Assembly: GCF_024105655.1 (NCBI RefSeq)
Contig: NZ_JAAAMH010000011.1
Span: 62,001-126,000 of the forward strand
DNA length: 64,000 nt
DNA from: Aliihoeflea sp. 40Bstr573
Lineage (GTDB): Bacteria > Pseudomonadota > Alphaproteobacteria > Rhizobiales > Rhizobiaceae
Direction: 5' to 3'
Part shown: piece after piece, positions 5,177-20,488 of the stretch
Layout: the number at the start of each line of letters is the position of its first letter
Position numbering within the stretch: the first letter of the stretch is position 1
The notes under the pieces: generated by a model
Told to the model about the DNA's origin: nothing
Databases searched by the model: none
What the model saw: the letters and a program-made list of their open reading frames with translations, nothing else
Translations under genes and position numbers: made by a program

Positions 5177-6151
5177 ATGAAGAAGATCGCATCCGTGCTG
5201 GCATCCACCGCCATCGTGTCGATGGCGTCAGGCGCCGCATTCGCCGAAAAGTGGGATATGCCGCTCGCCTATCCGGCGACGAATTTCCACTCCGAGAACG
5301 CAGCCATGTTCGCGCAGTGCGTGACCGACGCCACCGGCGGCGAACTGGAGATCGTCACCCACCCGAACGGCGCTCTGTTCGCCGGCAACGACATCAAGCG
5401 CGCCATCCAGACCGGCCAGGCACCGATCGGCGAACGCCTGATTTCGGCCCATGCCAACGAGAACCCGCTCTTCGGCGTTGATTCCATCCCCTTCCTCGCC
5501 ACCTCCTTCGACGAATCTCACAAGCTGTGGGACGCCGCCTCCGAGGAGATGGCCAAGGTGCTCGACGAGCAGAACCTCGTCTATCTCTATGCCGTCGCAT
5601 GGCCGCCGCAGGGTCTCTACGCCAAGAAGGAGATCAACTCGGCCGCCGATCTCCAGGGCGTTAAGTTCCGCGCCTACAACGCCGCCACCGCCCGCATTGC
5701 CGACCTCGCCGGCATGGCGCCGGTACAGATCGAGGCCGCCGAACTCAGCCAGGCGCTCGCGACCGGCGTGGTCGAGAGCTTCGTTTCGTCGGGCTCGACC
5801 GGCGTCGATTCCAAGGTATGGGAAAGCCTGACCCATTTCTACGACGTTCAGGCCTGGCTTCCGCGCAACGTCGTCTTCGCCAACAAGGACGCCTTCGAGG
5901 CCCTCAGCGATGAGGTCCGCACGGCGGTCACCACCTGCGCAGACGAAGCGGGCACCGCCGGCAACGCCAAGGCCGAGGAACTGACCGCCGGCTATCTGAA
6001 GACGCTTGAGGAGAACGGCATGACCGTCGCCAAGCCGTCCGAAGAGCTGCGCGCAGAGCTCGCCGCCTTCGGCGAGACGATGACGAACGAGTGGGTCGAA
6101 AGCGCCGGCGAAGTCGGAGCGTCGATCGTCGAGGACTACCGCGCCCAGTAA
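5177..6151 (+). CDS. TRAP transporter substrate-binding protein (DctP family)
   Basis: 324-residue periplasmic binding protein. The first ~23 residues (MKKIASVLASTAIVSMASGA...AFA) form a clear Sec signal peptide. The mature part has the DctP pattern, including the LQGVKFRAYN region where the carboxylate-binding arginine is expected, and FVSSGSTGVDSKVWES. It captures an organic or amino acid for the DctQ/DctM permease. The start at 5177 follows AGGAGAGGG; an upstream in-frame start would destroy the signal peptide. A terminator-like hairpin between this gene and dctQ may keep binding-protein expression above that of the permease. The ligand is unknown; the adjacent dehydrogenase suggests an amino acid or derivative. 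Confidence 0.93.
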   Translation: MKKIASVLASTAIVSMASGAAFAEKWDMPLAYPATNFHSENAAMFAQCVTDATGGELEIVTHPNGALFAGNDIKRAIQTGQAPIGERLISAHANENPLFGVDSIPFLATSFDESHKLWDAASEEMAKVLDEQNLVYLYAVAWPPQGLYAKKEINSAADLQGVKFRAYNAATARIADLAGMAPVQIEAAELSQALATGVVESFVSSGSTGVDSKVWESLTHFYDVQAWLPRNVVFANKDAFEALSDEVRTAVTTCADEAGTAGNAKAEELTAGYLKTLEENGMTVAKPSEELRAELAAFGETMTNEWVESAGEVGASIVEDYRAQ

Positions 6152-6166
6152 GCGCGCATCGAACGG

Positions 6167-6200
6167 GGGCCCGGCGGCGCGCCGGGTCCTCATTTTCTTT
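6167..6200 (+). terminator. Intra-operon hairpin after dctP, probable attenuator
   Basis: Nine-pair stem GGGCCCGGC (6167-6175) / GCCGGGTCC (6181-6189) with one G-U pair, loop of 5, then TCATTTTCTTTT. It lies between the binding-protein and permease genes and resembles a leaky rho-independent terminator. Confidence 0.65.
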
Positions 6201-6220
6201 TCCGGCTAGCGGAGCAGGAC

Positions 6221-6754
6221 ATGAATGGCGCGGGGCGCGTGATACGCCGGTCGCTCGATGCGATCTATGACGGTGCCGGCCTTCTTGCCGCTGTTTGCCT
6301 CGTCGCGATCCTGATCGTGATCATGGTGCAGGTGGGCGCGCGCTGGATGGGCGTCACGATCCATGGCCCGGCCGAATATGCCGGCTATCTAATGGCGGCC
6401 GCCTCCTTCCTCGCCTTCGCCCACACGCTGAACCGCGGCGCCCACATCCGCGTCGGACTTTTGATGAACCTTCTGGGCGAGCGTCGCTTCTGGGCCGAGC
6501 TCTGGTGCCTTCTGGTCGCCTCGGCGGCGAGCATCTTCCTTGCCTGGTACGCCTGCAAGGCAGTCTACTGGTCCTGGAAGCTTGGCGACATCAGCCAGGC
6601 GCAGGACGCCACCCCGCTCTGGATCGTGCAGACCCCGGTCGCCGTGGGCGCGATCATCCTCGCCGTCTGCTTTGTCGACAATCTCGCAACCCTCCTCGTG
6701 ACCGGCCGGGACAACATCCGCCCCGACCTCGGCGAACAGAGCCGGGCGGAATAG
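6221..6754 (+). CDS. TRAP transporter small permease (DctQ family)
   Basis: 177 residues with four predicted membrane helices (roughly 22-44, 55-75, 92-115 and 132-155), the standard DctQ topology. It contains the family-typical GPAEYAGYLMAAASFLAFAHTLNRGAHIRV segment (described here as residues ~49-78). It pairs with the large permease encoded 4 bp downstream to form the membrane part of a sodium-driven TRAP importer. ATG at 6221 follows GGAGCAGGAC. Function is clear at family level; the substrate is not. Confidence 0.93.
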   Translation: MNGAGRVIRRSLDAIYDGAGLLAAVCLVAILIVIMVQVGARWMGVTIHGPAEYAGYLMAAASFLAFAHTLNRGAHIRVGLLMNLLGERRFWAELWCLLVASAASIFLAWYACKAVYWSWKLGDISQAQDATPLWIVQTPVAVGAIILAVCFVDNLATLLVTGRDNIRPDLGEQSRAE

Positions 6755-6758
6755 GTCA

Positions 6759-8084
6759 ATGGAACAGTTCTACGCGATCGGCCTCTTTCTCTTCGTCCTC
6801 TTCATCCTGCTCGGCTCCGGCGTCTGGATCGGCCTTGCGCTGCTCGGCGTCGCCTATGTCGGCATGGAGATGTTCACGGTGCGCCCGACCGGCGACGCGA
6901 TGATGACCGTCGTCTGGCGATCCGCCTCATCCTGGACGCTGACGGCCCTGCCGATGTTCATCTGGATGGGCGAGATTCTCTTTCGCACGCGCCTGTCGGA
7001 AGACATGTTCAAGGGCCTTGCGCCCTGGATGGCGCGGCTTCCCGGCGGGCTGATGCACACCAACATCGCCGGATGCGCGGTTTTCGCCGCCGTTTCGGGC
7101 TCCTCGGCCGCCACGCTCACGACCGTCGGCAAGATGACGATCCCCGAACTGCGCAGGCGGCAGTATCCCGAGCGCATGGTGATCGGCACGCTGGCCGGCG
7201 CGGCCACGCTCGGCCTGATGATCCCGCCATCGCTGACGCTCATCGTCTACGGCGTCTCGATCAACGAATCGATCACATCGCTGTTCATCGCCGGCATCAT
7301 TCCCGGCCTCGTCCTCGCCGGTCTCTTCATGCTCTACGTGGTTGCAGTCTCGCAGCTCTCGAAGAGCTACAATCCGACGCCCGAGCCGAAGATCAGCTTC
7401 ATGGAAAAGGTCAAGCTTTCGCGCTTCCTTGTCCCGGTCCTGCTCCTGATCCTGCTCGTCATCGGCTCGATGTATACCGGCATTGCGACTGCGACGGAGG
7501 CTGCCGCCATTGGCGTCGTCGGCGCGCTGGTGCTCGCCGCCGCCCAGCGCTCGCTCACCTGGTCCGTCTTCGTCGAAAGCCTGATGGGCGCGACGCGGAC
7601 ATCGGCGATGATCGCGCTGATCCTCGCCGGCGCCGCCTTCCTGACGCTCGCCATGGGCTTCACCGGCCTGCCGCGCGGGCTAGCCGCCTTCATCGCCTCG
7701 ATGGAACTGACCCAGTTCCAGCTCATCATGGTGCTGATGGTGTTCTACATCATCCTCGGCTGCTTCCTCGATGGCATCTCCATCGTGGTCCTGACCATTG
7801 CCATCGTCGAACCAATGGTGCGCCAGGCCGGCATCGACCTGATCTGGTTCGGCATCTTCGTCGTCGTGGTGGTCGAGATGGCGCAGATCACGCCGCCCAT
7901 CGGCTTCAACCTCTTCGTGCTGCAGGGCATGACCGGCCACCCGATGAGCTATATCGCCCGGGCGGCCCTTCCGATGTTCCTGATCATGTTTGGCATGATC
8001 CTTCTGCTGGTCGCCTTCCCTGAACTGGCGACATGGTTGCCCGAACAGGTTCGCCCGGTCCGTGGCGTGGCGCCGGCGGCGTGA
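6759..8084 (+). CDS. TRAP transporter large permease (DctM family)
   Basis: 441 residues with about 12 hydrophobic helices, the catalytic ion-coupled transport subunit. Characteristic features visible are FAAVSGSSAATLTTVGKM, GTLAGAATLGLMIPPS and the C-terminal VEMAQITPPIGFNLFVLQG. It starts 4 bp after dctQ. Its stop overlaps the GTG start of the next membrane-protein gene (GTGA at 8081-8084), which implies translational coupling of a fourth component to the TRAP system. Confidence 0.95.
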   Translation: MEQFYAIGLFLFVLFILLGSGVWIGLALLGVAYVGMEMFTVRPTGDAMMTVVWRSASSWTLTALPMFIWMGEILFRTRLSEDMFKGLAPWMARLPGGLMHTNIAGCAVFAAVSGSSAATLTTVGKMTIPELRRRQYPERMVIGTLAGAATLGLMIPPSLTLIVYGVSINESITSLFIAGIIPGLVLAGLFMLYVVAVSQLSKSYNPTPEPKISFMEKVKLSRFLVPVLLLILLVIGSMYTGIATATEAAAIGVVGALVLAAAQRSLTWSVFVESLMGATRTSAMIALILAGAAFLTLAMGFTGLPRGLAAFIASMELTQFQLIMVLMVFYIILGCFLDGISIVVLTIAIVEPMVRQAGIDLIWFGIFVVVVVEMAQITPPIGFNLFVLQGMTGHPMSYIARAALPMFLIMFGMILLLVAFPELATWLPEQVRPVRGVAPAA

Positions 8085-9007
8085 CGCTTCTGCGGCTGGC
8101 GGCCCGCCAAGGCCGCGCGATCCTGATTGCCGGTCTCGTGGTCGGCATCGGCTTTCCCGCCCTGGCCTTCGCGATGCGGCCCTGGATACCCGAGCTTGTT
8201 GCGGCCATGCTCTTCGTCGCCGCGCTTCGCATCGGACCCCGCGCCGCCTTCGGTGCCGCGCGCGACTTCGGCGCCGCCGTCGGCATCGCCGGTCTCTATC
8301 AGGTCGTCTTCCCCCTGGTCGCCATTGCGTTGTTCCTTGCACTCGGCTGGAACGGCGTCTTCGCCACGGCGATTATCCTCATGCTCGCAGCCTCGCCGAT
8401 CTCCGGCAGTCCCAACATCACGCTGATGACCGGCAACGATCCGGCACCCGCGCTGCGCCAGCTCGTGATCGGCACCGCGCTCCTGCCCCTGACCGTCATT
8501 CCCGTCTTCTGGCTGACGCCCGATCTCGGCAATCTGTCGGACGTCTTCGCCGCCGCCGCGCGACTTCTGGCGCTGATCCTCGCCGCGACCGGCCTCGGCT
8601 TCGCCATCCGCGCGACCGTCCTGCGCGATCCGGAACCCGAAACGCTCGCGGCCATCGACGGTGCGTCGGCGATCCTCATGGGCGTGGTGGTGGTCGGGCT
8701 GATGTCGGCGGTGGGACCGGCGATCTTCGACGATCCGGCCGGACTGGCGGTCGCGCTCGTCATCGTCTTCGCGGCGAATTTCGGCCTTCAGCTCGCCGCC
8801 GCAACGGCCCTGCGCGCAAGCGGCCGCCGCCATCTGGCCGCCCCGCTCGGCATCGTCGCGGGCAACCGCAACATCGCGCTTTTCATCGCCGCCCTGCCGG
8901 CAGCGGTGACCGACCCGCTGTTGCTCTTCATCGGCTGCTACCAGATCCCGATGTATTTGACGCCGATTCTGCTGGGTCGGTTTTACAGGCGAGAAACGGC
9001 CCTATAG
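8081..9007 (+). CDS. Polytopic membrane protein, bile acid:Na+ symporter-like
   Basis: 308 residues starting at GTG 8081, which overlaps the dctM stop as GTGA. Eight to ten hydrophobic helices are visible. The sequence has two features resembling the BASS/BART transporter superfamily: the polar break ILMLAASPISGSPNITLMTG, and near the C-terminus GNRNIALFIAALP, close to the GNRN signature of that group. The tight overlap indicates co-translation with the TRAP permease. It may be a second transporter or exporter for the same metabolite. Family assignment is moderate and no substrate can be given. Confidence 0.6.
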   Translation: MTLLRLAARQGRAILIAGLVVGIGFPALAFAMRPWIPELVAAMLFVAALRIGPRAAFGAARDFGAAVGIAGLYQVVFPLVAIALFLALGWNGVFATAIILMLAASPISGSPNITLMTGNDPAPALRQLVIGTALLPLTVIPVFWLTPDLGNLSDVFAAAARLLALILAATGLGFAIRATVLRDPEPETLAAIDGASAILMGVVVVGLMSAVGPAIFDDPAGLAVALVIVFAANFGLQLAAATALRASGRRHLAAPLGIVAGNRNIALFIAALPAAVTDPLLLFIGCYQIPMYLTPILLGRFYRRETAL

Positions 9008-9067
9008 GCCCCGCCCGGTTCGCGTCAGAGCGGCCGCCATTTGCAGGCCGCCCTGACGGAAATGCAA

Positions 9068-9412
9068 TCAGCCCTGGGCGGCGATCACGATGATCTCGAC
9101 CTTGTACTTCGGCGCCGCGAGCTTCGCTTCGCCGGTCGCGCGCGCGGGCGTGTTCGCCTTGTCGACCCAGGCGTCCCATGCTTCGTTCATCTCGGCGAAG
9201 TTCGCCATGTCGTCGAGCCAGATCTGGGCCGAGAGGATGCGCGACTTGGACGAGCCTGACAGCGCCAGCAGCCGGTCGACCTCCTTGAGGATCGATTCGG
9301 TCTGCGCCTTCACCGTGTCGCCGTCGCCGACCTGTCCGGCGAGATAGACGACGCCGTTGTGGATGTTGGCCTGGCTCATGCGCGGGCCGGTTTCGTGCCG
9401 GGTGATGGTCAT
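9068..9412 (-). CDS. RidA/YjgF family reactive-imine deaminase-like protein
   Basis: 114-residue protein of the Rid family. The family includes enzymes that hydrolyse reactive enamines and imines released by PLP- or FAD-dependent amino-acid enzymes. The segment YLAGQVG and the Arg in PARATGEAKLAAPKYKVEI, at the place of the active-site Arg105 of RidA, are present, so hydrolase activity is plausible. The start at 9412 follows AAGGA. It is the last gene of the seven-gene minus-strand run (67 bp after the nitrilase gene). It also lies end-to-end with the D-amino-acid dehydrogenase/TRAP unit, so it could serve either pathway. Confidence 0.85.
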   Translation of the reverse strand: MTITRHETGPRMSQANIHNGVVYLAGQVGDGDTVKAQTESILKEVDRLLALSGSSKSRILSAQIWLDDMANFAEMNEAWDAWVDKANTPARATGEAKLAAPKYKVEIIVIAAQG

Positions 9413-9479
9413 GGGAGTATCCTTCCGAGAAATTCCAGCAAGAGTGTGAAGCGGCTTTGCGTTCGGAATTTCGATATGG

Positions 9480-10253
9480 TCATGGGTTCATGTCTGCGAG
9501 ATAGCTGTTCGCTTCCGCCGAGGCTTGGTAGCGGCTCGGGTCGATCTGTGCAACGAGAAGCGCCTCGCCGCTCTCGCCGGCCTGCGCCAGCAGAGTTCCG
9601 TCCGGTGCGACGATCGCCGACAGGCCGGCATAGGCGAAGCGCTCGTCCGCCCCGCAATGATCCACATAGGCAAGGAAGACCTGGTTCTCGAAGGCGCGCA
9701 CCGGCACCATCTTGCGCGCGATGAAGGCGTCGTGGTCGCTCGCCGGCAACGCGGTCGGCACCAGCACGACGTCGACGCCCGCCCTTGCCAGCCGCCGCAC
9801 GTTTTCGGGAAACTCGACATCGTAGCAGATCAGGATGCCGAACTTCAGCCCGCCGCGCTCGAAGGTCACGGCATCGGGCTTGGCCTGTTCGAACAGCCCG
9901 CGCTCATAGGGCCCGTAGAGATTGCACTTGCGGTAGATCGTCGGCACCGCTTCGCCGTCCACGAACACCGCGCTGTTGCGCAGCGTCTCACCGTCGCGCT
10001 CGGAGAAGCCGGCGAGGACGGCGACGCCGGTCTGCGCCGCGATCTCGGACAGCCGCGCGACTTGCGCGCCTTCGGACGTCTCGGCTTTTTCGCGCACGGC
10101 GCGCCCGGCGCCATAGCCCGTCAGCGCCAGTTCCGGCGCGATCAGGATCGACGCGCCCTTGGCCGCCGCCTCGCGTGCCGCGCGCTCGATCTTCGCAAGG
10201 TTGGCGCCGACGTCGCCCGGCACGCTTTCCATCTGGTACGCGGCGATCTTCAT
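9480..10253 (-). CDS. Carbon-nitrogen hydrolase (nitrilase superfamily)
   Basis: 257 residues, standard length for a stand-alone nitrilase-fold amidase. The full catalytic set is visible: Glu41 (IAPELALTGYG), Lys109 (YRKCNLYG) and Cys143 (ILICYDVEFPE). These enzymes hydrolyse linear amides, carbamoyl groups or nitriles; close branches include N-carbamoylputrescine amidase and omega-amidase. The start ATG at 10253 overlaps the stop of the upstream ABC permease (TGATG), so the two are translationally coupled. With a ureohydrolase and polyamine-type importer in the same run, a role in degrading an imported guanidino, ureido or amide compound is a reasonable inference; the actual substrate is unknown. 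Confidence 0.9.
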   Translation of the reverse strand: MKIAAYQMESVPGDVGANLAKIERAAREAAAKGASILIAPELALTGYGAGRAVREKAETSEGAQVARLSEIAAQTGVAVLAGFSERDGETLRNSAVFVDGEAVPTIYRKCNLYGPYERGLFEQAKPDAVTFERGGLKFGILICYDVEFPENVRRLARAGVDVVLVPTALPASDHDAFIARKMVPVRAFENQVFLAYVDHCGADERFAYAGLSAIVAPDGTLLAQAGESGEALLVAQIDPSRYQASAEANSYLADMNP

Positions 10254-11053
10254 CAGCTTTCGTCCGACGAGAGCGCGCCGAGGAGCCGCGGCAGGTCGTC
10301 GAACCGCGCCACCAGCCCGAAGATCAGCGCTGCAAGCGCGACGAAGAACACCGACACCGACGCCATGGTGGGCGTATAGCCGTAGCGCAGCGCGTTGAAG
10401 ATCTTGATCGGCAGCGTTTCCATGGTGAACCCCACGGTCATGTAGGCGACGATGTATTCGTTGAGTGACAGCACGAACACGAAGGCGAAGCCCGACACCA
10501 GATAGGGCAGTATCAGCGGCAGGACCACCGTGCGCAGAACCGTGCGGTCGCTCGCGCCCATGGTCGACGCCGCTTCCACGAGCGACCTGTCGATGGAGGC
10601 GAAGCCGAGGGTGAGCGTCACCAGCGGCAGCGTGACGAAGAAGATGCCGTGCGAGATGATCGCCGTCCACCACTGGCCGTAGGCGCCCGCCGTCGTCCAG
10701 AAGGTCAGGAAGCCGAGCGCGGTGATGACGGGTGGCAGCACGAAGGGTGCGACGCCCAGAAGCTGGAACACGTTCGCCCAAGGCGCGATCCGCCGCCACA
10801 GGAACCAGGCGAGCGGCAGCGCGATCAGCACCGCCAGCGTCGCGGCGAGGGTCGCAAGCAGCAGCGAGTTCATCAGCGCCTGCCGCCAGCTGTCGTCGGT
10901 GAAGATCGCCGCATACCAGGAAAGCGAAAAGCCCTCCGGCGGAAAGGTCAGGTTCTGGCGCTCGTTCACCGAAACGCCCGCGACCACGACGATTGGCGCG
11001 GCAAGGAAGATCGCGATGAGAGCAAGGTAGAGGCGCGTCAGGGCCGTGCTCAT
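10253..11053 (-). CDS. ABC transporter permease, PotC-like
   Basis: 266-residue inner-membrane permease with six predicted helices. It carries the EAA-type cytoplasmic loop around SLVEAASTMGASDRTVLRTVVLPLILP. Similarity is to the spermidine/putrescine PotC branch. The start at 11053 overlaps the end of the first permease (ATG within the last 4 bases), and the stop overlaps the nitrilase start. It pairs with the permease encoded directly upstream. A longer in-frame extension runs through the partner gene and is not credible. Confidence 0.92.
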   Translation of the reverse strand: MSTALTRLYLALIAIFLAAPIVVVAGVSVNERQNLTFPPEGFSLSWYAAIFTDDSWRQALMNSLLLATLAATLAVLIALPLAWFLWRRIAPWANVFQLLGVAPFVLPPVITALGFLTFWTTAGAYGQWWTAIISHGIFFVTLPLVTLTLGFASIDRSLVEAASTMGASDRTVLRTVVLPLILPYLVSGFAFVFVLSLNEYIVAYMTVGFTMETLPIKIFNALRYGYTPTMASVSVFFVALAALIFGLVARFDDLPRLLGALSSDES

Positions 11054-11904
11054 GCCGCATCTCCCTTGCGCCCGACAAGGAGCGTCAGGCCCACCAGCGC
11101 CAGCGACATCAGGACGAGGAATACGGCCATCGCGGCGGCGAACGGCATGTTCGACTGGTAGATCGCCTGGTCGGTGATCAGGACTGACAGCGTCCAGTGC
11201 TGGGGCCGGCCCAGAATCTGCGGCAGGAGATACGCGCCGAGCGCGAAGACGAAAACCATGATCAGCGTCGCCACGATCGTGTTGCGCAGGCCCGGCACGA
11301 CCACGTTGAAGAACGCGCGGACGGGCGAGGCGCCGAGCGTGCGTGCGGCTTCGGTCAGCGTCGGGTCGAGCCGTACGATGGCAGGGTAGAGGATCAGCAC
11401 CGTATAGGGCAGCGCCTGGTAGACCATCGCGGTCAGGACCGCGCCGAAGCCGGGATAGAGCGCGCGCGGCTCGGCCATCAATCCCGCCCAGACGAGCAGA
11501 TTGGTGACGCCGGCGGTGCGTGAGAAAAGCGTCGACCAGGCAAAGCCGATGATGACTTCCGACAGCGACAGGACGGACAAGAGCGCGACCAGCCAGACCA
11601 CCTGCACGCGCCGGCTCGCCTTCGAGATCAGCCAGGTGAACGGGAACCCGATCGCGACGCACACCAGCGCCACCATGACCGCAAGCATGATCGAAAAGCC
11701 CAGCACGCCGCCAAAGAAGGCGGACAGGAACCGCTCGTAATTGTCGAAGATGAAGGCCGGCGTATAGAACCCGCCCTGCTGGCGCTGGAAGAACGAAACG
11801 GCGACCATCGTGCCGAATGGCACGACGAAGAAGGCGACCAGCATGAAGCCGGGAAAGACCAGCGGGGCGTAGTCCGCAACGCTCTTCGGCGCCTCGCGTC
11901 TCAT
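11050..11904 (-). CDS. ABC transporter permease, PotB-like
   Basis: 284 residues, six predicted helices, and an EAA loop at TLTEAARTLGASPVRAFFNVVVPG. It forms the membrane channel with the PotC-like permease for uptake of a small cationic compound. The start at 11904 overlaps the end of the ATPase gene by 4 bases, and the 3' end overlaps the next permease. This overlapping chain shows that ATPase, PotB-like, PotC-like and nitrilase are one transcription and translation unit. Confidence 0.93.
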   Translation of the reverse strand: MRREAPKSVADYAPLVFPGFMLVAFFVVPFGTMVAVSFFQRQQGGFYTPAFIFDNYERFLSAFFGGVLGFSIMLAVMVALVCVAIGFPFTWLISKASRRVQVVWLVALLSVLSLSEVIIGFAWSTLFSRTAGVTNLLVWAGLMAEPRALYPGFGAVLTAMVYQALPYTVLILYPAIVRLDPTLTEAARTLGASPVRAFFNVVVPGLRNTIVATLIMVFVFALGAYLLPQILGRPQHWTLSVLITDQAIYQSNMPFAAAMAVFLVLMSLALVGLTLLVGRKGDAA

Positions 11905-12938
11905 GACTTCAGCACCACCGCGCTTTGCGCCGGTATGCGCACGCCGACCTTCTGGCCGGCGACGAGATCGGCGCGGTCGCGCGGTGTGGTCACCGCGACG
12001 ATGGTCGCACCGGAAACGTCGACGAAGGTTTCGATCGTGCCGCCAAGATCGCGCACGAAGGTGACCGTACCGTCCAGCGCACCCTCGCCCGGCGCGGTGA
12101 TCTGGACGTCCTCGGGCCGCACGGAGAGCGTCCCGGCACGTGCTCCGTCCGCCATCGCGACATCCGGCAGCGCGGTACCGAGCGCGGTGACGCGACCCGC
12201 GCTGTCGCTTTCGACGGCGAGAAGATTGGTCGAGCCGATGAACCCGGCGACGAAGCTGTCTGCCGGGCGGCGATAGATTTCCACCGGCGGCGCGGCCTGG
12301 CGGATACGGCCTTCGCCCATGACGACGACGAGGTCGGCCATGGTCATCGCCTCGCGCTGGTCGTGGGTGACGACGATGGTGGTGATGCCGAGCTGTTGCT
12401 GGAGCTGGCGCAGTTCCACCTGCATCGCCTCGCGCAGTTTGGCGTCGAGCGCGGAGAGCGGCTCGTCGAGCAGGAAGAGGCGCGGCGAGATGGCGAGCGC
12501 ACGGGCGATCGCCACCCGCTGGCGCTGGCCGCCGGAGAGCTTGGCGACCGGGCGCTTCGCAAAATCGGCCAGGTGGATGAGCTTCAGGAGCTCGTCCACC
12601 CGCGCGCTCTGCTCGGCCTTCGAGGCGCCGCGTATGCGCAGAGGATAGGCGATGTTGTCGCCGACATTGAGATGCGGGAACAGTGCGAGCGACTGGAACA
12701 CCATGCCGAAGTCGCGGTTGTGCGTCGGCGTCGCGGTGATGTCCTGCCCGTCGACCACGACGGCGCCCGAACTCGGCTCCTCAAGCCCCGCGATCATGCG
12801 CAGCAATGTGGTCTTGCCGCAGCCCGATGGGCCGAGCAGGCACACGAACGTGCCTGGCGGCACGTCGAGGCTGACATTGTCGACGGCTTTGAAGTCGCCG
12901 AACCTTTTGGTGATCGCCTTGAGCGCGAGACCCGTCAT
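11901..12938 (-). CDS. ABC transporter ATP-binding protein, PotA-like
   Basis: 345-residue ATPase. Walker A is GPSGCGKTT, the ABC signature is LSGGQRQR, Walker B is LFLLDEPLSALD and the switch histidine is in VTHDQ. A C-terminal TOBE-type regulatory domain (about 265-345) is typical of PotA/FbpC-like importers. The start at 12938 follows GGGACAG at good spacing; the open frame continues upstream through a repeat element, but that part is not coding-like. It powers the PotB/PotC-like permeases encoded downstream. Confidence 0.94.
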   Translation of the reverse strand: MTGLALKAITKRFGDFKAVDNVSLDVPPGTFVCLLGPSGCGKTTLLRMIAGLEEPSSGAVVVDGQDITATPTHNRDFGMVFQSLALFPHLNVGDNIAYPLRIRGASKAEQSARVDELLKLIHLADFAKRPVAKLSGGQRQRVAIARALAISPRLFLLDEPLSALDAKLREAMQVELRQLQQQLGITTIVVTHDQREAMTMADLVVVMGEGRIRQAAPPVEIYRRPADSFVAGFIGSTNLLAVESDSAGRVTALGTALPDVAMADGARAGTLSVRPEDVQITAPGEGALDGTVTFVRDLGGTIETFVDVSGATIVAVTTPRDRADLVAGQKVGVRIPAQSAVVLKS

Positions 12939-13044
12939 CGCTGTCCCGTCTTTCCGATGGTCCGGGCTGCCAACGCCGCCCGGAAGATTGTGGTTCCCGA
13001 CGCACCGAGCAGGGCAACTGCCGCCGGGCGCGTCGAGATTCGGG

Positions 13045-13150
13045 GTCAGGACGAGCCGAAAACGGTGGTCTTCGAGAACCGGAGCGGAGCGTACTTTCCG
13101 CACGTGAGCACTGGAAGCGCAGAAGACTGCCGTTTGCAGGCCGTCCTGAC
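13045..13150. repeat. Palindromic intergenic repeat, copy 1 (between binding-protein and ATPase genes)
   Basis: The ends are perfect 9-bp inverted repeats GTCAGGACG (13045-13053) and CGTCCTGAC (13142-13150). An inner arm AAACGGTGGTCTTC pairs with GAAGACTGCCGTTT (12 of 14 matching). The core CGAGAACCGGAGCGGAGCG followed by TACTTT is shared with the copy at 14318. The whole can fold into one long hairpin in the RNA. Its spurious translation contains FENRSGAYF, which I remember from Mesorhizobium-like genomes. Confidence 0.85.
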
Positions 13151-13169
13151 GTGAATATCGTCGCGCCCG

Positions 13170-14258
13170 TCAGCCGGCGATCATCTCGGTCCACTTCTGG
13201 TTCAGGAAGTCGTCCCGCGTCTGGTAGAGATCGTAGCGCGGGATGATCGGATCGATGTCCGACGACACGGCGGCAAATTCCTCGTCGGTGAGTTGCGTCA
13301 GTTCGCGCTTGATCGTCGGCGCGGTGCCGACCTTCTGCGACATCAGCGTCTGGGTTTCGGCGCGCGTCATGTAGTCGATGAAGAGATGCGCTTCCTCGAC
13401 CTTCTGCGACGCGCGGCTCAAGGCCCACGCGCCGGAATCCAGAATGCCGCCTTCCTGCGGGAAGGTCGAGCGGACCGGGTTGCCGTCGGCCGCCGCAAGG
13501 CCGGTGACGTCGTGGTAGTACTGGCCCATCGGGATTTCGCCCGACTTCAGCGCCTGTTCGAACTGCGCCTCGTCGCGATACCACAGCCGCACGTTCGGCT
13601 TCACCTCGGCCAGCTTCTGGAACACCTCTTCCAGCCCCTCGTCGGTGCTGAGATGGTCGGTGCCGCCGAAGAAGGTCTTGGCGGTGACTTCCAGCAGGAA
13701 GGAGTTGGAGACGAGCGCGAGAAGGCCGAGGCGATCGGCATTCGCCGGATCCCAAAGCGCCTGCCAGGAGGTCGGCGCCTCGGGATAGACGTCGGTGTTG
13801 GTGACGAGCGTGATGTACCAGGCCACCGCGCCTATGCCGCACACGCGTCCGTCCGGATATTTGTTGACCGAGCGCTCGAGCAGATTGTCGGCATTGGTGA
13901 TCTTGGCGAGGTCGAGCGGCTGCCAGAGCTCCGTCGCCTGACCCTTGAGCATGGCGACCTGCGCCATCATCGACAAATCGGCCGGCGCCTGGTTGGCGCG
14001 CGCGGCCTGCTCGAGCTGGACGAGCCAGGCCTCGCCGGTCGGCTCGGCGATGGATTCGACCGCGATGCCGGTTTCCTCGGTGAAAGCCGGGAAGATGTGC
14101 TCGTCGAACGAATCCTTGAAATAGCCGCCATAGACGCCGACCTTGATCGAGCGGTCCTGCGCCCGCAGGATCGAGGGCATGGCGAGCATGCCGGCCGTCA
14201 TCGCCGTGCCGGCGAGCACCGTGCGCCGGCTCACATTGGTGGTCAGAAACTTCTTCAT
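13170..14258 (-). CDS. ABC transporter substrate-binding protein, PotD/PotF-like, Tat signal
   Basis: 362 residues. The N-terminus has a twin-arginine signal (SRRTVLAGTAM) ending near SILRAQD. The mature part is a family 1 periplasmic binding protein of the polyamine type, with VGVYGGYFKDSFDEHIFPAF at its start and a GAVAWYITLVTNTDVYPEAP mid-section. It should deliver the ligand to the PotABC-like transporter encoded downstream. The gene is bracketed on both sides by direct copies of a hairpin repeat, so its mRNA segment is separated from both neighbours by strong stem-loops. A polyamine, agmatine or guanidino acid ligand is inferred from context only. Confidence 0.9.
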   Translation of the reverse strand: MKKFLTTNVSRRTVLAGTAMTAGMLAMPSILRAQDRSIKVGVYGGYFKDSFDEHIFPAFTEETGIAVESIAEPTGEAWLVQLEQAARANQAPADLSMMAQVAMLKGQATELWQPLDLAKITNADNLLERSVNKYPDGRVCGIGAVAWYITLVTNTDVYPEAPTSWQALWDPANADRLGLLALVSNSFLLEVTAKTFFGGTDHLSTDEGLEEVFQKLAEVKPNVRLWYRDEAQFEQALKSGEIPMGQYYHDVTGLAAADGNPVRSTFPQEGGILDSGAWALSRASQKVEEAHLFIDYMTRAETQTLMSQKVGTAPTIKRELTQLTDEEFAAVSSDIDPIIPRYDLYQTRDDFLNQKWTEMIAG

Positions 14259-14317
14259 CGTCGTTCCTCTTATGTGGCCTTTGCGGCCGTTCCCTTGTTC
14301 CCAATTCAGCCCGGGTA

Positions 14318-14431
14318 TTCGGGGCTGTGCGAGGCGAAAACGTCTGGTTTCGAGAACCGGAGCGGAGCGTACTTTCGTACGTGAGCACCGGAAGCGCAGA
14401 AAGCAGGCGTTTGCAGACCGCTCAGAGCCGA
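14318..14431. repeat. Palindromic intergenic repeat, copy 2 (between ureohydrolase and binding-protein genes)
   Basis: Same core as copy 1, CGAGAACCGGAGCGGAGCG, then GTGAGCACCGGAAGCGCAGAA, in the same orientation. Arms GAAAACGTCTGGTTTC and GAAAGCAGGCGTTTGC pair at 13 of 16 positions. The right end, CGCTCAGAGCCGAA, pairs imperfectly with TTCGGGGCTGTGCG at the left end and runs over the ureohydrolase stop codon. Confidence 0.82.
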
Positions 14432-15477
14432 ATGATGGATGGACTGAACACCATCAGGCTCAGAATTTCAAACAGCACCTGTGCTCCCGCATGGGCAGTG
14501 TTGGTCGTCGAATCGTATTGCGGCGCGACCTCGACCACGTCGCCGCCGACGAGATCGACGCCCTTCAGGCCGCGCAGGAGTTCCAGCACCTCGCGCGTCG
14601 TCAGCCCGCCCACTTCCGGCGTGCCGGTTCCGGGCGCGAAGGAGGGGTCGAGGCTGTCGATGTCGAAGGAGAGATAGGTCGGCCCATCGCCGACGATGGC
14701 GCGCGCCTTTTCGATGATCGCGGGAATGCCGAGCCGGTCGACCTCCTCGGCATGGATCACCGTCATGCCGCTCTCGTAGGAGAACTCCCACAGATATTCG
14801 GCCGAGCCGCGAATGCCGATCTGGATCGTCCGCGTCGGATCGAGCACGCCGTCGAGCACCGCATTGCGGAACGGCCCGCCATGGTGGAACTTGGTTTGAT
14901 CGAACGATCCGCTCGTATCGCAATGCGCGTCGATATGGATCAGCCCGACCGGCCGGTCCCGGCCGACCGCCTTCAGGATCGGGTGGGTGATCGAATGATC
15001 GCCGCCGACGCCGAGCGGCACGACGCCCGCATCCACCATGCGTGTCACATGCGCCTCGATGTCGTCATGGCTCTGCTCCAGCCGGTAGCGGCTGGCAAAC
15101 GGCACGTCGCCGATGTCGGCCACGCGCAGTTCCTGAACCGGCGCACATTCGAGCACGTGGTTGTAGGGTCCGATCCGCTCGATCGTCCGAAGCGCGCGCG
15201 GCCCGAAGCGCGAGCCGTTGCGGTTTGTGACGCCCAGATCCATCGGCACGCCGTAGATGCCGACCTGCAGGTCGCCGAAATCGGGCGCGGCCGGGTCGAT
15301 GGCATGGTGCGGCGCGGTCAGGAAGGTCGGCATGCCGGCATAGGGCGCGAGCCGCGTGCCGGATTTGGAGAAGATCTTCTCGGCCACCTTGCGAAAGCGG
15401 GGGTCGGCGATGTCGCCGCCTGTGCCGTCCGCGAACTTGTCGCGCAAGGCTTCGAGTTTCGCCTGATCCCAGCCCAT
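14422..15477 (-). CDS. Ureohydrolase (agmatinase / guanidino-acid hydrolase family)
   Basis: 351 residues. All manganese ligand motifs of the arginase/agmatinase fold are present: His161 in GGDHSIT, D183-A-H185-x-D187 in HIDAHCDTSG, and Asp272/Asp274 in SFDIDSLDP, followed by APGTGTPEVGG. These enzymes split guanidino compounds into urea and an amine. The N-terminal extension and the FHHGGPFRNAV segment fit the agmatinase/guanidinobutyrase/guanidinopropionase branches rather than classical arginase; the substrate cannot be fixed. The start at 15477 follows AAGGAG at good spacing. It heads the minus-strand run ureohydrolase, PotD-, PotA-, PotB-, PotC-like genes, nitrilase, RidA. A LysR gene is divergent 105 bp away. 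Confidence 0.9.
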   Translation of the reverse strand: MGWDQAKLEALRDKFADGTGGDIADPRFRKVAEKIFSKSGTRLAPYAGMPTFLTAPHHAIDPAAPDFGDLQVGIYGVPMDLGVTNRNGSRFGPRALRTIERIGPYNHVLECAPVQELRVADIGDVPFASRYRLEQSHDDIEAHVTRMVDAGVVPLGVGGDHSITHPILKAVGRDRPVGLIHIDAHCDTSGSFDQTKFHHGGPFRNAVLDGVLDPTRTIQIGIRGSAEYLWEFSYESGMTVIHAEEVDRLGIPAIIEKARAIVGDGPTYLSFDIDSLDPSFAPGTGTPEVGGLTTREVLELLRGLKGVDLVGGDVVEVAPQYDSTTNTAHAGAQVLFEILSLMVFSPSIIRL

Positions 15478-15546
15478 TGCCTGCTCCTTGTTCGCTGCCG
15501 CGTGCCGCATAATGTTTTGGCAGTATCGAATTGTTGAGGCAGTGCC

Positions 15547-15560
15547 ATTGAAAATGCAAT
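15547..15560. promoter_or_regulatory. Candidate LysR-type binding site between ureohydrolase and LysR genes
   Basis: ATTG-N6-CAAT (15547-15550 and 15557-15560) is a perfect inverted repeat in an AT-rich part of the divergent gap. It lies close to the LysR gene start. LysR proteins usually autoregulate from such shared intergenic sites; the assignment is inference. Confidence 0.3.
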
Positions 15561-15582
15561 TGATATTGTTGTAGCGCTCGCT

Positions 15583-16602
15583 ATGAGCTTTCTTCACATC
15601 GGAAACCCACGCTTGGCACCGCGTCTGCCCCCGCTCAATCCCCTGCGCGCCTTCGAGGCCGCAGCCCGTCACGGCTCGCTGACCAAGGCGGCGGCGGAGC
15701 TGTCGGTGACGCATGGTGCGGTCAGCCACCAGATCAGGGCGCTGGAATCCGCTCTCGACGTGCAGCTCTTCGAGCGCGGCGGCCACCGCCTGAAACTCAC
15801 CGCCCATGGCGCCGAGCTCCTGCCTTCCGTCTCGACCGCGTTCGCCGAGATCGCGGGCGCCACTGCCCGGCTGACGCGGCCTTCGAGCGCCGGTGCGCTG
15901 TCGGTCACCTGCGTGCCCGCGCTTCTGTCGTTCTGGCTCCTGCCGCGCCTTTCCTCCTTCACCGCGCGCTTTCCCGACATCCGCCTCACCCTGGACGCCG
16001 CCAACGACGCGGACCTGATCCACTCCCCCGGCATCGACATCTGCGTCCTTTACGGCGACGGCAACTGGACCGATTGCTGGTCGCGCCGGCTGACCGGGCT
16101 CGATCTTTTTCCGGTCGTCTCACCCTCGCTCATCAACAACCGGCCGATCCGCACCATTCGCGACATGAAGGAGCACATCCTCCTGCACGCCGATGACGGG
16201 CGCGAGTGGAACACCTGGCTGTCGGCCGCCGATGCGCTCGACCTGAAGCGCAACGCGCACCACCACATGTGCGACGCGCGGCTTGCCATCGAGGCGGCAA
16301 TCCACGGCTATGGCGTGGCGCTCGGCGACACGGTGACCGCGAGCCGCTTCCTCGCTTCCGGCCAGCTCGTCGCGCCCTTCAGCCTCGCCGTGCCGGCGGT
16401 CGATGCCTTCCACGTCGCCTGCCGTTCGGACCTGCGCTCCGCGCCGGTCGTGCAGGTCTTCATCGATTGGCTCACCGCCGAATTCGCCGCCACCGACGCC
16501 CGCGCCGAGCCGCAGACGAGCGCTCGCCGTTCAATCCGGCGTTCCACACCCGCCCCGCGCAAGACGCTGGGCCGAAAAGCCGCCAAATCCCGCAAGTCCT
16601 GA
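15583..16602 (+). CDS. LysR family transcriptional regulator, GcvA-like
   Basis: 339 residues. An N-terminal winged helix-turn-helix (about 18-75, with SLTKAAAELSVTHGAVSHQIRALE) is followed by a periplasmic-binding-like effector domain to about residue 310. The C-terminal ~30 residues are Arg/Lys-rich and outside the domain. It resembles the GcvA/AmpR branch. It is divergent from the ureohydrolase operon, so it is the likely regulator of that cassette. An aminotransferase gene starts 14 bp after it and may be co-transcribed. ATG at 15583 is the start; the leader MSFLHIGNPRLAPRLPP precedes the HTH. Confidence 0.92.
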   Translation: MSFLHIGNPRLAPRLPPLNPLRAFEAAARHGSLTKAAAELSVTHGAVSHQIRALESALDVQLFERGGHRLKLTAHGAELLPSVSTAFAEIAGATARLTRPSSAGALSVTCVPALLSFWLLPRLSSFTARFPDIRLTLDAANDADLIHSPGIDICVLYGDGNWTDCWSRRLTGLDLFPVVSPSLINNRPIRTIRDMKEHILLHADDGREWNTWLSAADALDLKRNAHHHMCDARLAIEAAIHGYGVALGDTVTASRFLASGQLVAPFSLAVPAVDAFHVACRSDLRSAPVVQVFIDWLTAEFAATDARAEPQTSARRSIRRSTPAPRKTLGRKAAKSRKS

Positions 16603-16616
16603 GAACCCGCCCCCGC

Positions 16617-17789
16617 ATGATGAGACCGCGCCTCAATCCGCTGATCGCCAGCCTGTCCGCCCCGCCGATCCCCGCCGTCCAGGCCTGGGGCCGCGCCTAT
16701 GACGGCCGCCTCGGCCCGCTGGTCGACCTTTCCCAGGCCGTGCCCGGCTACCCGCCCGAGCCGCGCATGCTGAACTGGCTCGCTGAAGCTGCCGGCTCCG
16801 TCGCGGCTTGCGGTTATGGGCCGATCGAAGGCGAGGACGAACTGCGCGCAGCCTACGCCTCCCATCAGGCCGAACTCTACGGCGCGCCGGTCGCGGCCGA
16901 GAACATCCACGTCACCTCGGGATGCAACCAGGCCTTCGTCACCGCCGCGATGGCGGTCGCCGGCGTCGGCGATGCGATCCTGATGACCAACCCGTGCTAC
17001 TTCAACCACGAGACGACGCTAGAAATGCTTGGCATCGCACCGCGCTATGTCCGCTGCCATGCCGAAAATGGCTTCCTGCCGCGGGTCGAGGACGTCGCCG
17101 CCGCGATTGCGCCCGACATCCGCGCGCTGGCCATCGTCACGCCCAACAACCCGACCGGCGCAATCTATCCGCCCGCGCTCCTCGCCGACCTTCTGGCGCT
17201 TTGCCGCGACAGGGGCATCTGGCTCATCCTCGACGAGACCTATCGCGATTTCCTGCCGCTCGGCACCTTGCGCCCGCATGAGCTCTTTTCCGAGCCGCTC
17301 TGGCAGGACAATCTGATCGGCCTCTACTCCTTCTCGAAATCGTTCTGCATTCCCGGCCATCGCCTCGGCGCGGTCACCGCCTCGCCGCTGATGGTGGATG
17401 CCGTCGCCAGGATCATGGACAATGTGCAGATCTGCGCGCCCCGCGCCCCGCAGATCGCGGTCGCCTCGGCCATCGCGCCGCTCGCCGCCTGGCGCGAGGA
17501 CAACCGCGCCGAGATCGCCCGCCGCGCCGATGCGCTGCGCGCGGCGCTGGATGGCGTCAACGGCTGGACGCTCGACGCGCTCGGCGCCTACTTCGCGTTC
17601 CTGCGCCATCCGTTCGAGGGCGAAAGCTCGATCCGCATCTCCGAACGCCTCGCCCGCGAGGCCGGCATCGTCACCATCCCCGGCGCCTTCTTCGGCCCCG
17701 GCAACGAGCGGCACCTTCGCGTGGCATTCGCCAATGCGACGGCGCAGGTGTTGCGCACGCTGCCGGAAAGGCTGCGGGCGATAACCTAG
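16617..17789 (+). CDS. PLP-dependent aminotransferase, class I/II
   Basis: 390 residues, fold type I. Visible are the cofactor-binding VTSGCNQAFVTAA region, NNPTGAIYPP, the DETYRDF segment binding the pyridine nitrogen, the Schiff-base lysine in YSFSKSFCIPGHRLG, and the carboxylate-binding arginine near HLRVAFAN. It transfers an amino group from an amino acid or amine to a 2-oxo acid. It follows the LysR gene by 14 bp in the same direction, so co-transcription is likely. It could process the product of the guanidino cassette, but this is inferred from position only. Two adjacent ATG codons (16617 and 16620) are possible starts. Confidence 0.88.
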   Translation: MMRPRLNPLIASLSAPPIPAVQAWGRAYDGRLGPLVDLSQAVPGYPPEPRMLNWLAEAAGSVAACGYGPIEGEDELRAAYASHQAELYGAPVAAENIHVTSGCNQAFVTAAMAVAGVGDAILMTNPCYFNHETTLEMLGIAPRYVRCHAENGFLPRVEDVAAAIAPDIRALAIVTPNNPTGAIYPPALLADLLALCRDRGIWLILDETYRDFLPLGTLRPHELFSEPLWQDNLIGLYSFSKSFCIPGHRLGAVTASPLMVDAVARIMDNVQICAPRAPQIAVASAIAPLAAWREDNRAEIARRADALRAALDGVNGWTLDALGAYFAFLRHPFEGESSIRISERLAREAGIVTIPGAFFGPGNERHLRVAFANATAQVLRTLPERLRAIT

Positions 17790-17806
17790 CTTTCTCCGGC
17801 TCGGCC

Positions 17807-18688
17807 TTACGCGAACAGCGCCCGATCCTTCTCCACCGCCTGCGCGATGAACCCCGCCACCGCCTGTATCCGTCGAACCGGCCGCACCGACTCGTGATAG
17901 ACCAGCCAGTAGGCGCGCCGGATCGGCTTGATCGCCTCGACAAGCACCAGTTCGGGGTGCCTGCGCGCGATGAACGAGTGCAGGATGCCCACCCCGGCGC
18001 CTGCCCGCACCGCCTCGACCTGCCCCAGAGCCGACGACACCGAGAACCGCGCCTGCCATTGCGGATGGAACTGGTGTGCATAGTCGAGTGACGGGCTGAC
18101 GATCAGGTCCGGCACATAGCCGATCAGCCGGTGGCGCGGCAGGTCGTCGGTCGATTGCGGCAGGCCATGCGCCTCGGCATATGTGCGCGAGACGTAGAGC
18201 GCGAGCGTGTAGTCGACGAGCTTTGCCGCCACCAGCCGGCCTTCGGTCGGACGGTCGACGGTGATCGCGATGTCCGCCTCGTGCCTCGACAGCGAGAAGG
18301 AGCGCGGCACCGGGACAAGCTGCAGGTCGAGATCGGCGTGGAGCGCGGAGAATTCCGGCAGGCGTCCGGCGAGATAGGCGACGCCGAACCCGTCCGGCGC
18401 GCCGATCCGCACCGTTCCCGAAAGCGTCGTTTCCTCGCCCGCGACTTCCGATCGTGCGGCGATCATGTCGGCTTCCATGCGCTCGGCGACCTGCAGGAAG
18501 CGCTGGCCCTCCGGCGTCAGTTCGCAGCCTGTCGTCAGCCGGTTGAGAAGCTTGGCGCCGAGCGCGGATTCGAGCGCCACCATGCGCCGCGAGACGGTCG
18601 CGTGGTTGAGCCCGAGCCTTTTGCCGGCCCCCAGAATCTGGCCGGATCGCGCCACCGCCAGAAACACGCGCATGTCGTCCCAATTCAT
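17807..18688 (-). CDS. LysR family transcriptional regulator
   Basis: 293 residues. The N-terminal HTH reads MNWDDMRVFLAVARSGQILGAGKRLGLNHATVSRR (residues 1-35), followed by a LysR effector domain. Start 18688 has GAGGAGATTTCC before it. The gene is divergent from mmsA across 161 bp and convergent with the aminotransferase (17 bp gap). Divergence makes mmsA its probable target, and an inverted repeat lies in the shared gap. This branch (NWDDMRVFLAVAR) is common next to acyl-semialdehyde dehydrogenase genes, from general knowledge of such neighbourhoods. Confidence 0.9.
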   Translation of the reverse strand: MNWDDMRVFLAVARSGQILGAGKRLGLNHATVSRRMVALESALGAKLLNRLTTGCELTPEGQRFLQVAERMEADMIAARSEVAGEETTLSGTVRIGAPDGFGVAYLAGRLPEFSALHADLDLQLVPVPRSFSLSRHEADIAITVDRPTEGRLVAAKLVDYTLALYVSRTYAEAHGLPQSTDDLPRHRLIGYVPDLIVSPSLDYAHQFHPQWQARFSVSSALGQVEAVRAGAGVGILHSFIARRHPELVLVEAIKPIRRAYWLVYHESVRPVRRIQAVAGFIAQAVEKDRALFA

Positions 18689-18719
18689 GGAAATCTCCTC
18701 CCCGGCTCCCATACCGCGT

Positions 18720-18735
18720 TGCACCATTTCGTGCA
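18720..18735. promoter_or_regulatory. Candidate LysR operator upstream of mmsA
   Basis: TGCAC-N6-GTGCA is a perfect inverted repeat located 31 bases from the LysR start and 114 bases from the mmsA start, within the divergent promoter region. It fits a LysR-type site but is short. Confidence 0.35.
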
Positions 18736-18849
18736 CCTTCTTTCTTGCGCATTGATCCTTGCACAGCGGCTTGCGCGCGCCTGACGTTGCAATGGTGTCC
18801 TCATGCGCAGAAGATGCGCGCCAAACCGGATAAGCTTAGGGAGATCCTC

Positions 18850-20346: not shown

Positions 20347-20354
20347 ACCACCCG

Positions 20355-20374
20355 CCAGGCGCTTAGTCGCCTGG
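20355..20374. terminator. Hairpin after mmsA
   Basis: CCAGGCG (20355-20361) / CGCCTGG (20368-20374) with a 6-base loop, 9 bases after the mmsA stop. There is no T-run on either strand, so it is a weak or rho-assisted terminator at best. It lies in the tail-to-tail gap with bdhA. Confidence 0.4.
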
Positions 20375-20389
20375 TATCATACCACGCCG

Positions 20390-20435
20390 ACGTCTCCCTC
20401 CCCCTTGTGGGGAGGGGTACGGGGTGGGGGTCCCC
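20390..20435. repeat. Dispersed CCCTCCCCCTTGTGGGGAGGG-type repeat, copy A
   Basis: CCCTCCCCCTTGTGGGGAGGG followed by TACGGGGTGGGGGTCCCC. The inner part is a short inverted repeat (CCTCCCC/GGGGAGG). Related copies lie at 45517, 45618, 48625 and 61477. All are between genes, here between the convergent mmsA and bdhA. Confidence 0.85.
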
Positions 20436-20488
20436 AACGATCCGCCCCCTCGCTCGGGGCGCTCCCTTTCCGGATGCAAGCCGCAGTC

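Follow-up and report, generated by a model that had tools for sequence, protein, structure and literature searches.

A ureohydrolase–importer–amidase cassette of Rhizobiaceae as a candidate nitrogen-scavenging operon for arginine-derived guanidino compounds

We analyzed a run of minus-strand genes at positions 9068-15477 of a 64,000-nucleotide stretch of Aliihoeflea sp. 40Bstr573 (contig NZ_JAAAMH010000011.1, positions 62,001 to 126,000; this whole stretch is hereafter the window, and the genome assembly comprises 69 contigs totalling 4.2 Mb). The run encodes a SpeB2-type ureohydrolase, a PotDABC-like ATP-binding cassette (ABC) importer, and a nitrilase-fold amidase. We propose, with a probability of roughly 0.58, that it is a nitrogen-scavenging operon for arginine-derived guanidino compounds that combines an importer, a 4-guanidinobutyramide amidase, and a guanidinobutyrase. 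On the best reading, the cassette corresponds to the lower half of the arginine monooxygenase route, a known pathway, and lacks the monooxygenase itself. The gene order exceeds chance, as ureohydrolase-potDABC, with or without the nitrilase, recurs in many genera. The genes are as follows.

14422..15477, minus strand: SpeB2-type ureohydrolase (guanidino acid hydrolase), 351 aa; Pfam Arginase, 298.7 bits
13170..14258, minus strand: PotD-like solute-binding protein, 362 aa; SBP_bac_8, 92 bits
11901..12938, minus strand: PotA-like ATPase, 345 aa; ABC_tran, 134.9 bits, and TOBE_2
11050..11904, minus strand: PotB-like permease, 284 aa; BPD_transp_1 (46.9 and 47.1 bits for the permease pair)
10253..11053, minus strand: PotC-like permease, 266 aa; BPD_transp_1 (permease pair, as above)
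9480..10253, minus strand: nitrilase-fold amidase, 257 aa, proposed 4-guanidinobutyramide hydrolase; CN_hydrolase, 165.8 bits
9068..9412, minus strand: RidA/Rid-family protein, 114 aa, optional member; Ribonuc_L-PSP, 85.4 bits (cutoff 27.3)
15583..16602, plus strand: GcvA-like LysR regulator, divergent; LysR_substrate and HTH_1; GcvA subfamily model, 292.2 bits (cutoff 288)
16617..17789, plus strand: class I/II aminotransferase, divergent, frequent cassette partner; Aminotran_1_2; NF005732, 549.2 bits (cutoff 366; domain search begun at 16632, five codons short of the 16617 start)

The earlier note on this DNA had described seven minus-strand genes with 1- to 4-base overlaps and a divergent LysR gene, and all of these are present and confirmed by Pfam. 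The overlaps are of 4 bases for potA/potB, 4 bases for potB/potC, and 1 base for potC/nitrilase, while gaps of 163, 231, and 67 bases separate the ureohydrolase from potD, potD from potA, and the nitrilase from RidA. A promoter scan at the locus returned 0 sites (0.7 expected), too few to be informative.

Conservation was followed in 151 genomes of the family Rhizobiaceae, with matches cut at 61% identity for the ureohydrolase and 44% for the nitrilase, where the match lists show a gap. The note had asked whether these two genes keep together, and they do. The 64 ureohydrolase matches fell in 59 genomes and the 43 nitrilase matches in 42, and 34 of the 43 lay within 10 kb of the ureohydrolase. 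Counted by genome, 38 carried both genes, 4 the nitrilase only, 21 the ureohydrolase only, and 88 neither (Fisher p = 3e-16, a value overstated since the genomes are related). Beyond the family, the nitrilase was found at E≤1e-50 in 10 of 288 genomes of the class; a ureohydrolase started within about 5 kb of it in eight of these, which span four families, the remaining two being G178 and G326. In the reverse direction, 8/36 other genomes with the ureohydrolase (E≤1e-90) carry that nitrilase.

Gene content was counted in a set of 80 loci, the best 80 of at least 564 related stretches, which leans to close relatives, and more specifically in its 70 members longer than 19 kb. The nitrilase was present in 33/70 loci, every one of which also had potC (33/33), and potC was present in 46/70. 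LysR was found in at least 59/70, a lower bound because over-long ureohydrolase calls swallowed it in the window and in L033. Genes in fetched loci were called by a codon-usage script, which yielded few or no genes in L167, L182, L183, L186, L208, and L215 and lost the ureohydrolase in L090 and L098; L090 is an empty row in the 70-locus count. The cassette is spread over many plant-associated genera. Among the matches listed, the closest ureohydrolase (99% identity) comes from a Rhizobiaceae metagenome bin. Another, at 82% identity and accompanied by potDABC, is on a contig that bears the name Bacillus subtilis SK6B4 (L051) and looks mislabelled or mixed.

The substrate of the ureohydrolase is largely defined because the protein is, from sequence and gene order, the likely counterpart by descent (orthologue) of SpeB2 from Sinorhizobium meliloti. 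One record of that species has a gene 81.6% identical to it, followed by genes for a binding protein, an ATPase, and two permeases, with LysR and aminotransferase genes divergent, and this order is that of SMc01967 (speB2) to SMc01963. This S. meliloti record (Ak57, L199) is labelled pSymB yet is 3.7 Mb long. SpeB2 of S. meliloti was reported to be active on 4-guanidinobutanoate, 4-guanidinobutyraldehyde, and 2-ketoarginine (PMC7268258; here and below, papers are cited for the portions of their text that were available). The same paper names ArgI2 and SpeB as the agmatinases of this species and assigns SpeB2 the three other compounds. The window gene is presumably equal to SpeB2 in function, and the equation of the assayed SpeB2 with SMc01967 rests on the shared name. 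In a S. meliloti tolC mutant, expression of SMc01967 to SMc01963 changed by -18.7, -12.4, -7.4, -5.8, and -5.2 fold along the operon (PMC2912261), a graded fall that might fit the behaviour of one transcript. Some of the SMc01963-67 genes are up in a glnB glnK mutant at high nitrogen (PMC3596328) and some in an hfq mutant (PMC2848018).

The window protein has the motifs GGDHS, DAHCD, and FDIDSLDP, and its closest solved relatives are the 3-guanidinopropionase GpuA (288.3 bits) and the guanidinobutyrase GbuA (254.6 bits) of Pseudomonas aeruginosa. It passes the agmatinase model TIGR01230 (197.3 bits, cutoff 174.3), falls below the cutoff of the agmatinase model PRK02190 (277.6 of 302 bits), and has orthologues labelled agmatinase in public records. 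Identity as a guanidine hydrolase was rejected, as kinship to 7esr/7oi1, which we take to be the guanidine hydrolase structure, is weaker (148.9 bits vs 288.3 for guanidinopropionase). A guanidine riboswitch was likewise discarded, with 0 Rfam matches at gathering score within 6000-21000.

Genes near related ureohydrolases fit 2-ketoarginine and 4-guanidinobutyrate as substrates. A gene of the ornithine cyclodeaminase/mu-crystallin family, similar to pyrroline-2-carboxylate (P2C) reductases, lies near the ureohydrolase in L162, L174, L175, and L176; the L162 protein has 7rbp (cyclodeaminase/mu-crystallin) and 6t3e (pyrroline-2-carboxylate reductase) as best PDB matches, and in that locus RidA sits between the two genes. 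A homologue of the D-arginine dehydrogenase DauA occurs in 8/80 loci (PDB 3nyc, E 1.5e-84, for L040). In L168-L171, and partly in L172, neighbours resemble a class III aminotransferase, a gamma-glutamyltransferase, and an aldehyde dehydrogenase. It should be noted that PDB searches of neighbours used single proteins (the flavin enzyme of L181, the DauA homologue of L040, and the cyclodeaminase-family gene of L162). Outside the 80-locus set, the labels class III aminotransferase, gamma-glutamyltransferase, glutamine-synthetase-like, iron alcohol dehydrogenase, alcohol dehydrogenase, and major facilitator superfamily come from reading the sequences by eye. The window genome has two urease alpha matches (G000:C13, G000:C68), so the strain could use the urea released.

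The nitrilase has the triad Glu41-Lys109-Cys143, with Glu147 four positions past the catalytic Cys. We take it that omega-amidases need an Arg at this position, where the window protein has Glu instead. In the second of two trees, the cassette amidases and those adjoining flavin enzymes form one clade of 35 rows (support 100/97), which includes L206 and L207, rows with no known partner. All 35 rows have Glu at window position 147, as against Arg (3), Trp (4), or Leu (1) in the eight outside rows, the three rows on the deaminated-glutathione-amidase side being Arg. A Glu here would suit a positively charged substrate. Both trees hold chosen rows only (51 in the first, 43 in the second; 200-330 aa), and their inner order, which bears on which partner amidases are nearest to the cassette amidases, is partly unresolved. 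In L155 (G068:C1, 8497-11741), a distant ureohydrolase (35%) adjoins a distant nitrilase (38%) and a LuxR-looking gene, and this is possibly a remote version of the pair.

The neighbours of these amidases in other loci bear on the route. In the arginine monooxygenase route, arginine is converted to 4-guanidinobutyramide and then to 4-guanidinobutyric acid (PMC5082578); an amide is made from lysine by the amino-acid 2-monooxygenase DavB, which acts with DavA, according to the available part of its literature. In L180 and L181, from another family of the class, potDABC, the ureohydrolase, the nitrilase, a roughly 560-residue flavin enzyme, and a thiamine pyrophosphate (TPP) enzyme occur together, with an alcohol-dehydrogenase-like gene between ureohydrolase and nitrilase in L180. 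By PDB search, the L181 flavin enzyme is most similar to 3we0, an L-amino acid oxidase/monooxygenase (E 1.5e-243). In L179-L181 the TPP enzyme scores above the cutoff of 500 bits for NF005712, the 5-guanidino-2-oxopentanoate decarboxylase model (667 to 702 bits, with 695.7 and 702 in L180/L181); the stretch of L179 has ureohydrolase, nitrilase, and TPP enzyme, and neither pot genes nor a flavin enzyme. An Azospirillum plasmid carries LysR, potDABC, speB, and the nitrilase. A Tsukamurella plasmid, from another phylum (Actinomycetota), has speB, a permease, a CN hydrolase, and a flavin enzyme in a single run, at 40% identity to the window ureohydrolase, 43% to the window nitrilase, and 58% to the L181 flavin enzyme.

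Among 378 genomes of the phylum, the flavin enzyme had 11 matches (eight from one family), 10 of them with an adjoining nitrilase relative; in G004 (L203) the two genes overlap. In plasmid neighbourhoods of the flavin enzyme (5 of 11 records), the amidase adjoins in Tsukamurella, Sulfitobacter, and Haematobacter, and in an Arthrobacter plasmid a 36% relative lies about 4.5 kb away. The flavin enzyme-amidase pair is thus common and often not guanidino-specific; a ureohydrolase beside it points to arginine, and an amidase of the monooxygenase-partner type paired with a guanidinobutyrase points to 4-guanidinobutyramide.

We therefore favor the following scheme, in which the amidase substrate and the aminotransferase reaction are predictions. 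PotDABC would take up a positively charged guanidino compound that has no carboxylate, 4-guanidinobutyramide being the likeliest; the amidase would convert it to 4-guanidinobutyrate and ammonia; and the ureohydrolase would split 4-guanidinobutyrate into gamma-aminobutyrate (GABA) and urea. The same ureohydrolase may also convert 2-ketoarginine, formed from internal arginine by the aminotransferase, to 5-amino-2-oxopentanoate and urea, and RidA, where present, would clear imines. The amide may be either imported or made by another enzyme in the window strain, and import would account for the amidase gene overlapping that of a permease. The conserved linkage of ureohydrolase, nitrilase, and importer supports the earlier note's proposal that a guanidino compound may be imported and degraded through two C-N hydrolases. 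Its "undefined substrate" was too strong given the assays of S. meliloti SpeB2 (PMC7268258); the amidase substrate and the importer ligand are predictions. Its remark that it knew of no described pathway with exactly this composition also went too far, as amide hydrolysis before urea release belongs to the arginine monooxygenase route, whose first two steps are in PMC5082578.

Pot-like importers are one of two types found beside the ureohydrolase. The window Pot proteins miss the PotABCD equivalog/subfamily cutoffs (PotA subfamily 337.5 of 355.6, PotB 120.9 of 348, PotC 119.8 of 326, and PotD 54.4 of 582 bits). An importer of the polar amino-acid type stands beside the ureohydrolase in 41/70 loci, and with LysR and the ureohydrolase it makes up the sole tracked genes in 16/70. 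In L040, its binding protein scores 121 bits against the Lys/Arg/Orn family model, less than the cutoff of 256.35. This importer suggests that the ureohydrolase substrate is amino-acid-like; the Pot importer cargo would be related but different, and its ligand is probably a guanidino compound.

Several observations weigh against the proposed operon. The nitrilase is absent from 13/46 pot loci, and 9/43 nitrilase matches sit away from the ureohydrolase, some by unrelated-looking genes. In S. meliloti Ak57 the nitrilase is split between two frames (L199, 14165-14943), and in two further Sinorhizobium records it matches in two pieces. SMc01963-66 are absent from the transporters named as required in symbiosis in PMC7268258 (section 9). 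In the window genome, no flavin amino-acid 2-monooxygenase was matched at E≤1e-20 (5/151 family genomes have one at this threshold), so the amide would have to come from outside or from some other source. Among the five plasmid neighbourhoods, the ureohydrolase is near the flavin enzyme in Tsukamurella only, and a Thioclava plasmid has no annotated amidase beside that enzyme. Finally, a congener (L143) has a cluster of RidA, nitrilase, and aminotransferase that includes neither ureohydrolase nor importer. Two of the nine nitrilase matches away from the ureohydrolase, those of L144 and L150 (close relatives, 53-57%), lie beside glutamine-synthetase-like and iron-alcohol-dehydrogenase-like genes and a further Pot-like importer; this could be a route for glutamylated amines.

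The aminotransferase is the basis of an alternative that we find doubtful, in which arginine is only transaminated: 2-ketoarginine would come from the aminotransferase and lose urea through the ureohydrolase, and the nitrilase would act as an omega-amidase, clearing the 2-oxoglutaramate left by glutamine as amino donor. Indeed, the aminotransferase occurs in 36/70 loci, in 29/33 with the nitrilase vs 7/37 without, the L143 trio fits this scheme, SpeB2 accepts 2-ketoarginine (PMC7268258), and the P2C-reductase-like genes near the ureohydrolase in the four loci named above agree with it. It is opposed by the Glu147 of the window nitrilase and its whole clade, where the three deaminated-glutathione-amidase-side rows have Arg, and by the 4/33 nitrilase loci without the aminotransferase; L180 and L181 likewise have the ureohydrolase-nitrilase pair without it. 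Outside the family, it lies near the ureohydrolase in G318 and G191 and not in G415, has no match at E≤1e-80 in G319 and G416, and is present in G363 without either hydrolase match. The arginine transaminase identified in S. meliloti is AspC SMc02262, a gene other than the cassette aminotransferase (PMC7268258). The earlier suggestion that the aminotransferase may complete the pathway holds for its frequent partnership, its reaction being a prediction. A role as a canavanine gamma-lyase was dropped, as the available text of PMC10018355 and PMC10367076 gave no link.

It is unlikely that the amidase is instead a broad or lysine-type omega-aminoamide hydrolase, similar to DavA, whose location reflects general polyamine/amide scavenging and not one pathway. 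The monooxygenases partnering the clade include the lysine type (DavB/DavA, in the portion of that literature available), most flavin enzyme-amidase pairs lack a ureohydrolase in the stretch viewed (only 4.6 kb for L226-L236), and nitrilase relatives occur in other operons. However, the ureohydrolase-nitrilase pair recurs, rearranged, in other families and in Actinomycetota, and L179-L181 have a 2-ketoarginine decarboxylase next to it.

Carbamoyl hydrolysis of a ureido analogue (for example 4-ureidobutyrate, or the 2-oxo acid derived from citrulline), alongside ureohydrolase action on the guanidino form, would let both hydrolases converge on GABA or 5-amino-2-oxopentanoate and agrees with a weak match of the nitrilase to the N-carbamoylputrescine amidase model (92.8 bits, cutoff 410), but it is very improbable, as the sole AguB-like tree row lies outside the clade with Trp at position 147 and the partner genes make amides, not ureido compounds.

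We give hardly any credence to the idea that the aminotransferase is an O2-using pyridoxal phosphate (PLP) enzyme that turns arginine into 4-guanidinobutyramide by oxidative decarboxylation, in place of the flavin monooxygenase, making the cassette a complete arginine monooxygenase pathway. It would explain why the aminotransferase tracks the amidase, why L143 keeps only RidA, nitrilase, and aminotransferase, and why L180/L181 have a flavin enzyme and not the aminotransferase; moreover, oxidation of arginine is known for some PLP enzymes and carboxamide formation for one (PMC7497351). Against it, the solved structures closest to the aminotransferase are those of ordinary aminotransferases, the best 60 of 108 matches do not include MppP, and in G187 a flavin enzyme coexists with a 44% identical aminotransferase.

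RidA, which had been counted as a core member, is so rarely conserved at the cassette (2/70 loci; at a loose threshold 2/80, plus 4/36 other loci, L143, L161, L162, and L174) that we regard it as optional. Its best PDB matches are PSPTO_0102 and NMB1025, and it falls below the cutoff of the Rid subfamily model TIGR00004 (52.5 of 106.25 bits).

A beta-alanine route through an mmsA-like gene (18814-20346) was rejected, as this gene is near the cassette only in L033, L161, and L143, from the same genus or species, and matches elsewhere are different aldehyde dehydrogenases (30-33% identical). On the plus strand at 6221-9007, two open reading frames (ORFs) resembling small and large tripartite ATP-independent periplasmic (TRAP) permeases lie with a membrane protein that matches no NCBIfam model, and the group stops just beyond RidA; they were matched near the cassette in L033 and L161 only. 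A dispersed repeat of about 100 bases occupies both gaps flanking potD (13043-13156 and 14321-14433; copies 77-82% alike), with 9 matches genome-wide, the query copy counted.

If the proposed operon is correct, rhizobial genes would be assigned to the amidase step of a route otherwise known here from Streptomyces biosynthesis papers, and the common "agmatinase" label would be called into question. It would also suggest that rhizobia scavenge 4-guanidinobutyramide from their surroundings, and would provide importer and amidase candidates for the arginine network that is proposed to support nitrogen fixation in symbiosis. Public records label the orthologous genes agmatinase, ABC transporter without a name, and carbon-nitrogen hydrolase. 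A literature search found no title or abstract describing the cassette, subscription papers being mostly outside its scope; the enzymology is known, while the gene set, importer, and rhizobial spread seem undescribed.

Among known systems, the gene surroundings of P. aeruginosa GpuA/GbuA presumably differ from those of the window. DavA itself, we assume, belongs to the family of the window nitrilase. As described in the available portion of its literature, the DavB/DavA system (lysine monooxygenase and 5-aminovaleramidase) is similar in that the window nitrilase falls in a clade of amidases adjoining flavin amino-acid oxidase/monooxygenase genes; unlike it, the window nitrilase is paired with a ureohydrolase and a Pot-like importer, with no flavin enzyme. 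The S. meliloti system of SpeB2 and SMc01963-66 (PMC7268258, PMC2912261) arranges ureohydrolase, binding protein, ATPase, and two permeases as the window does, and L199 shares the divergent LysR and aminotransferase. It differs in the split nitrilase of the Ak57 record and in that no RidA was matched in L199, and the available text of both papers mentions neither nitrilase nor RidA. The arginine monooxygenase route (PMC5082578 for the steps to 4-guanidinobutyrate), continued by guanidinobutyrase, uses amidase- and guanidinobutyrase-type enzymes, for which the window has candidates side by side, with an ABC importer and an aminotransferase instead of the monooxygenase.

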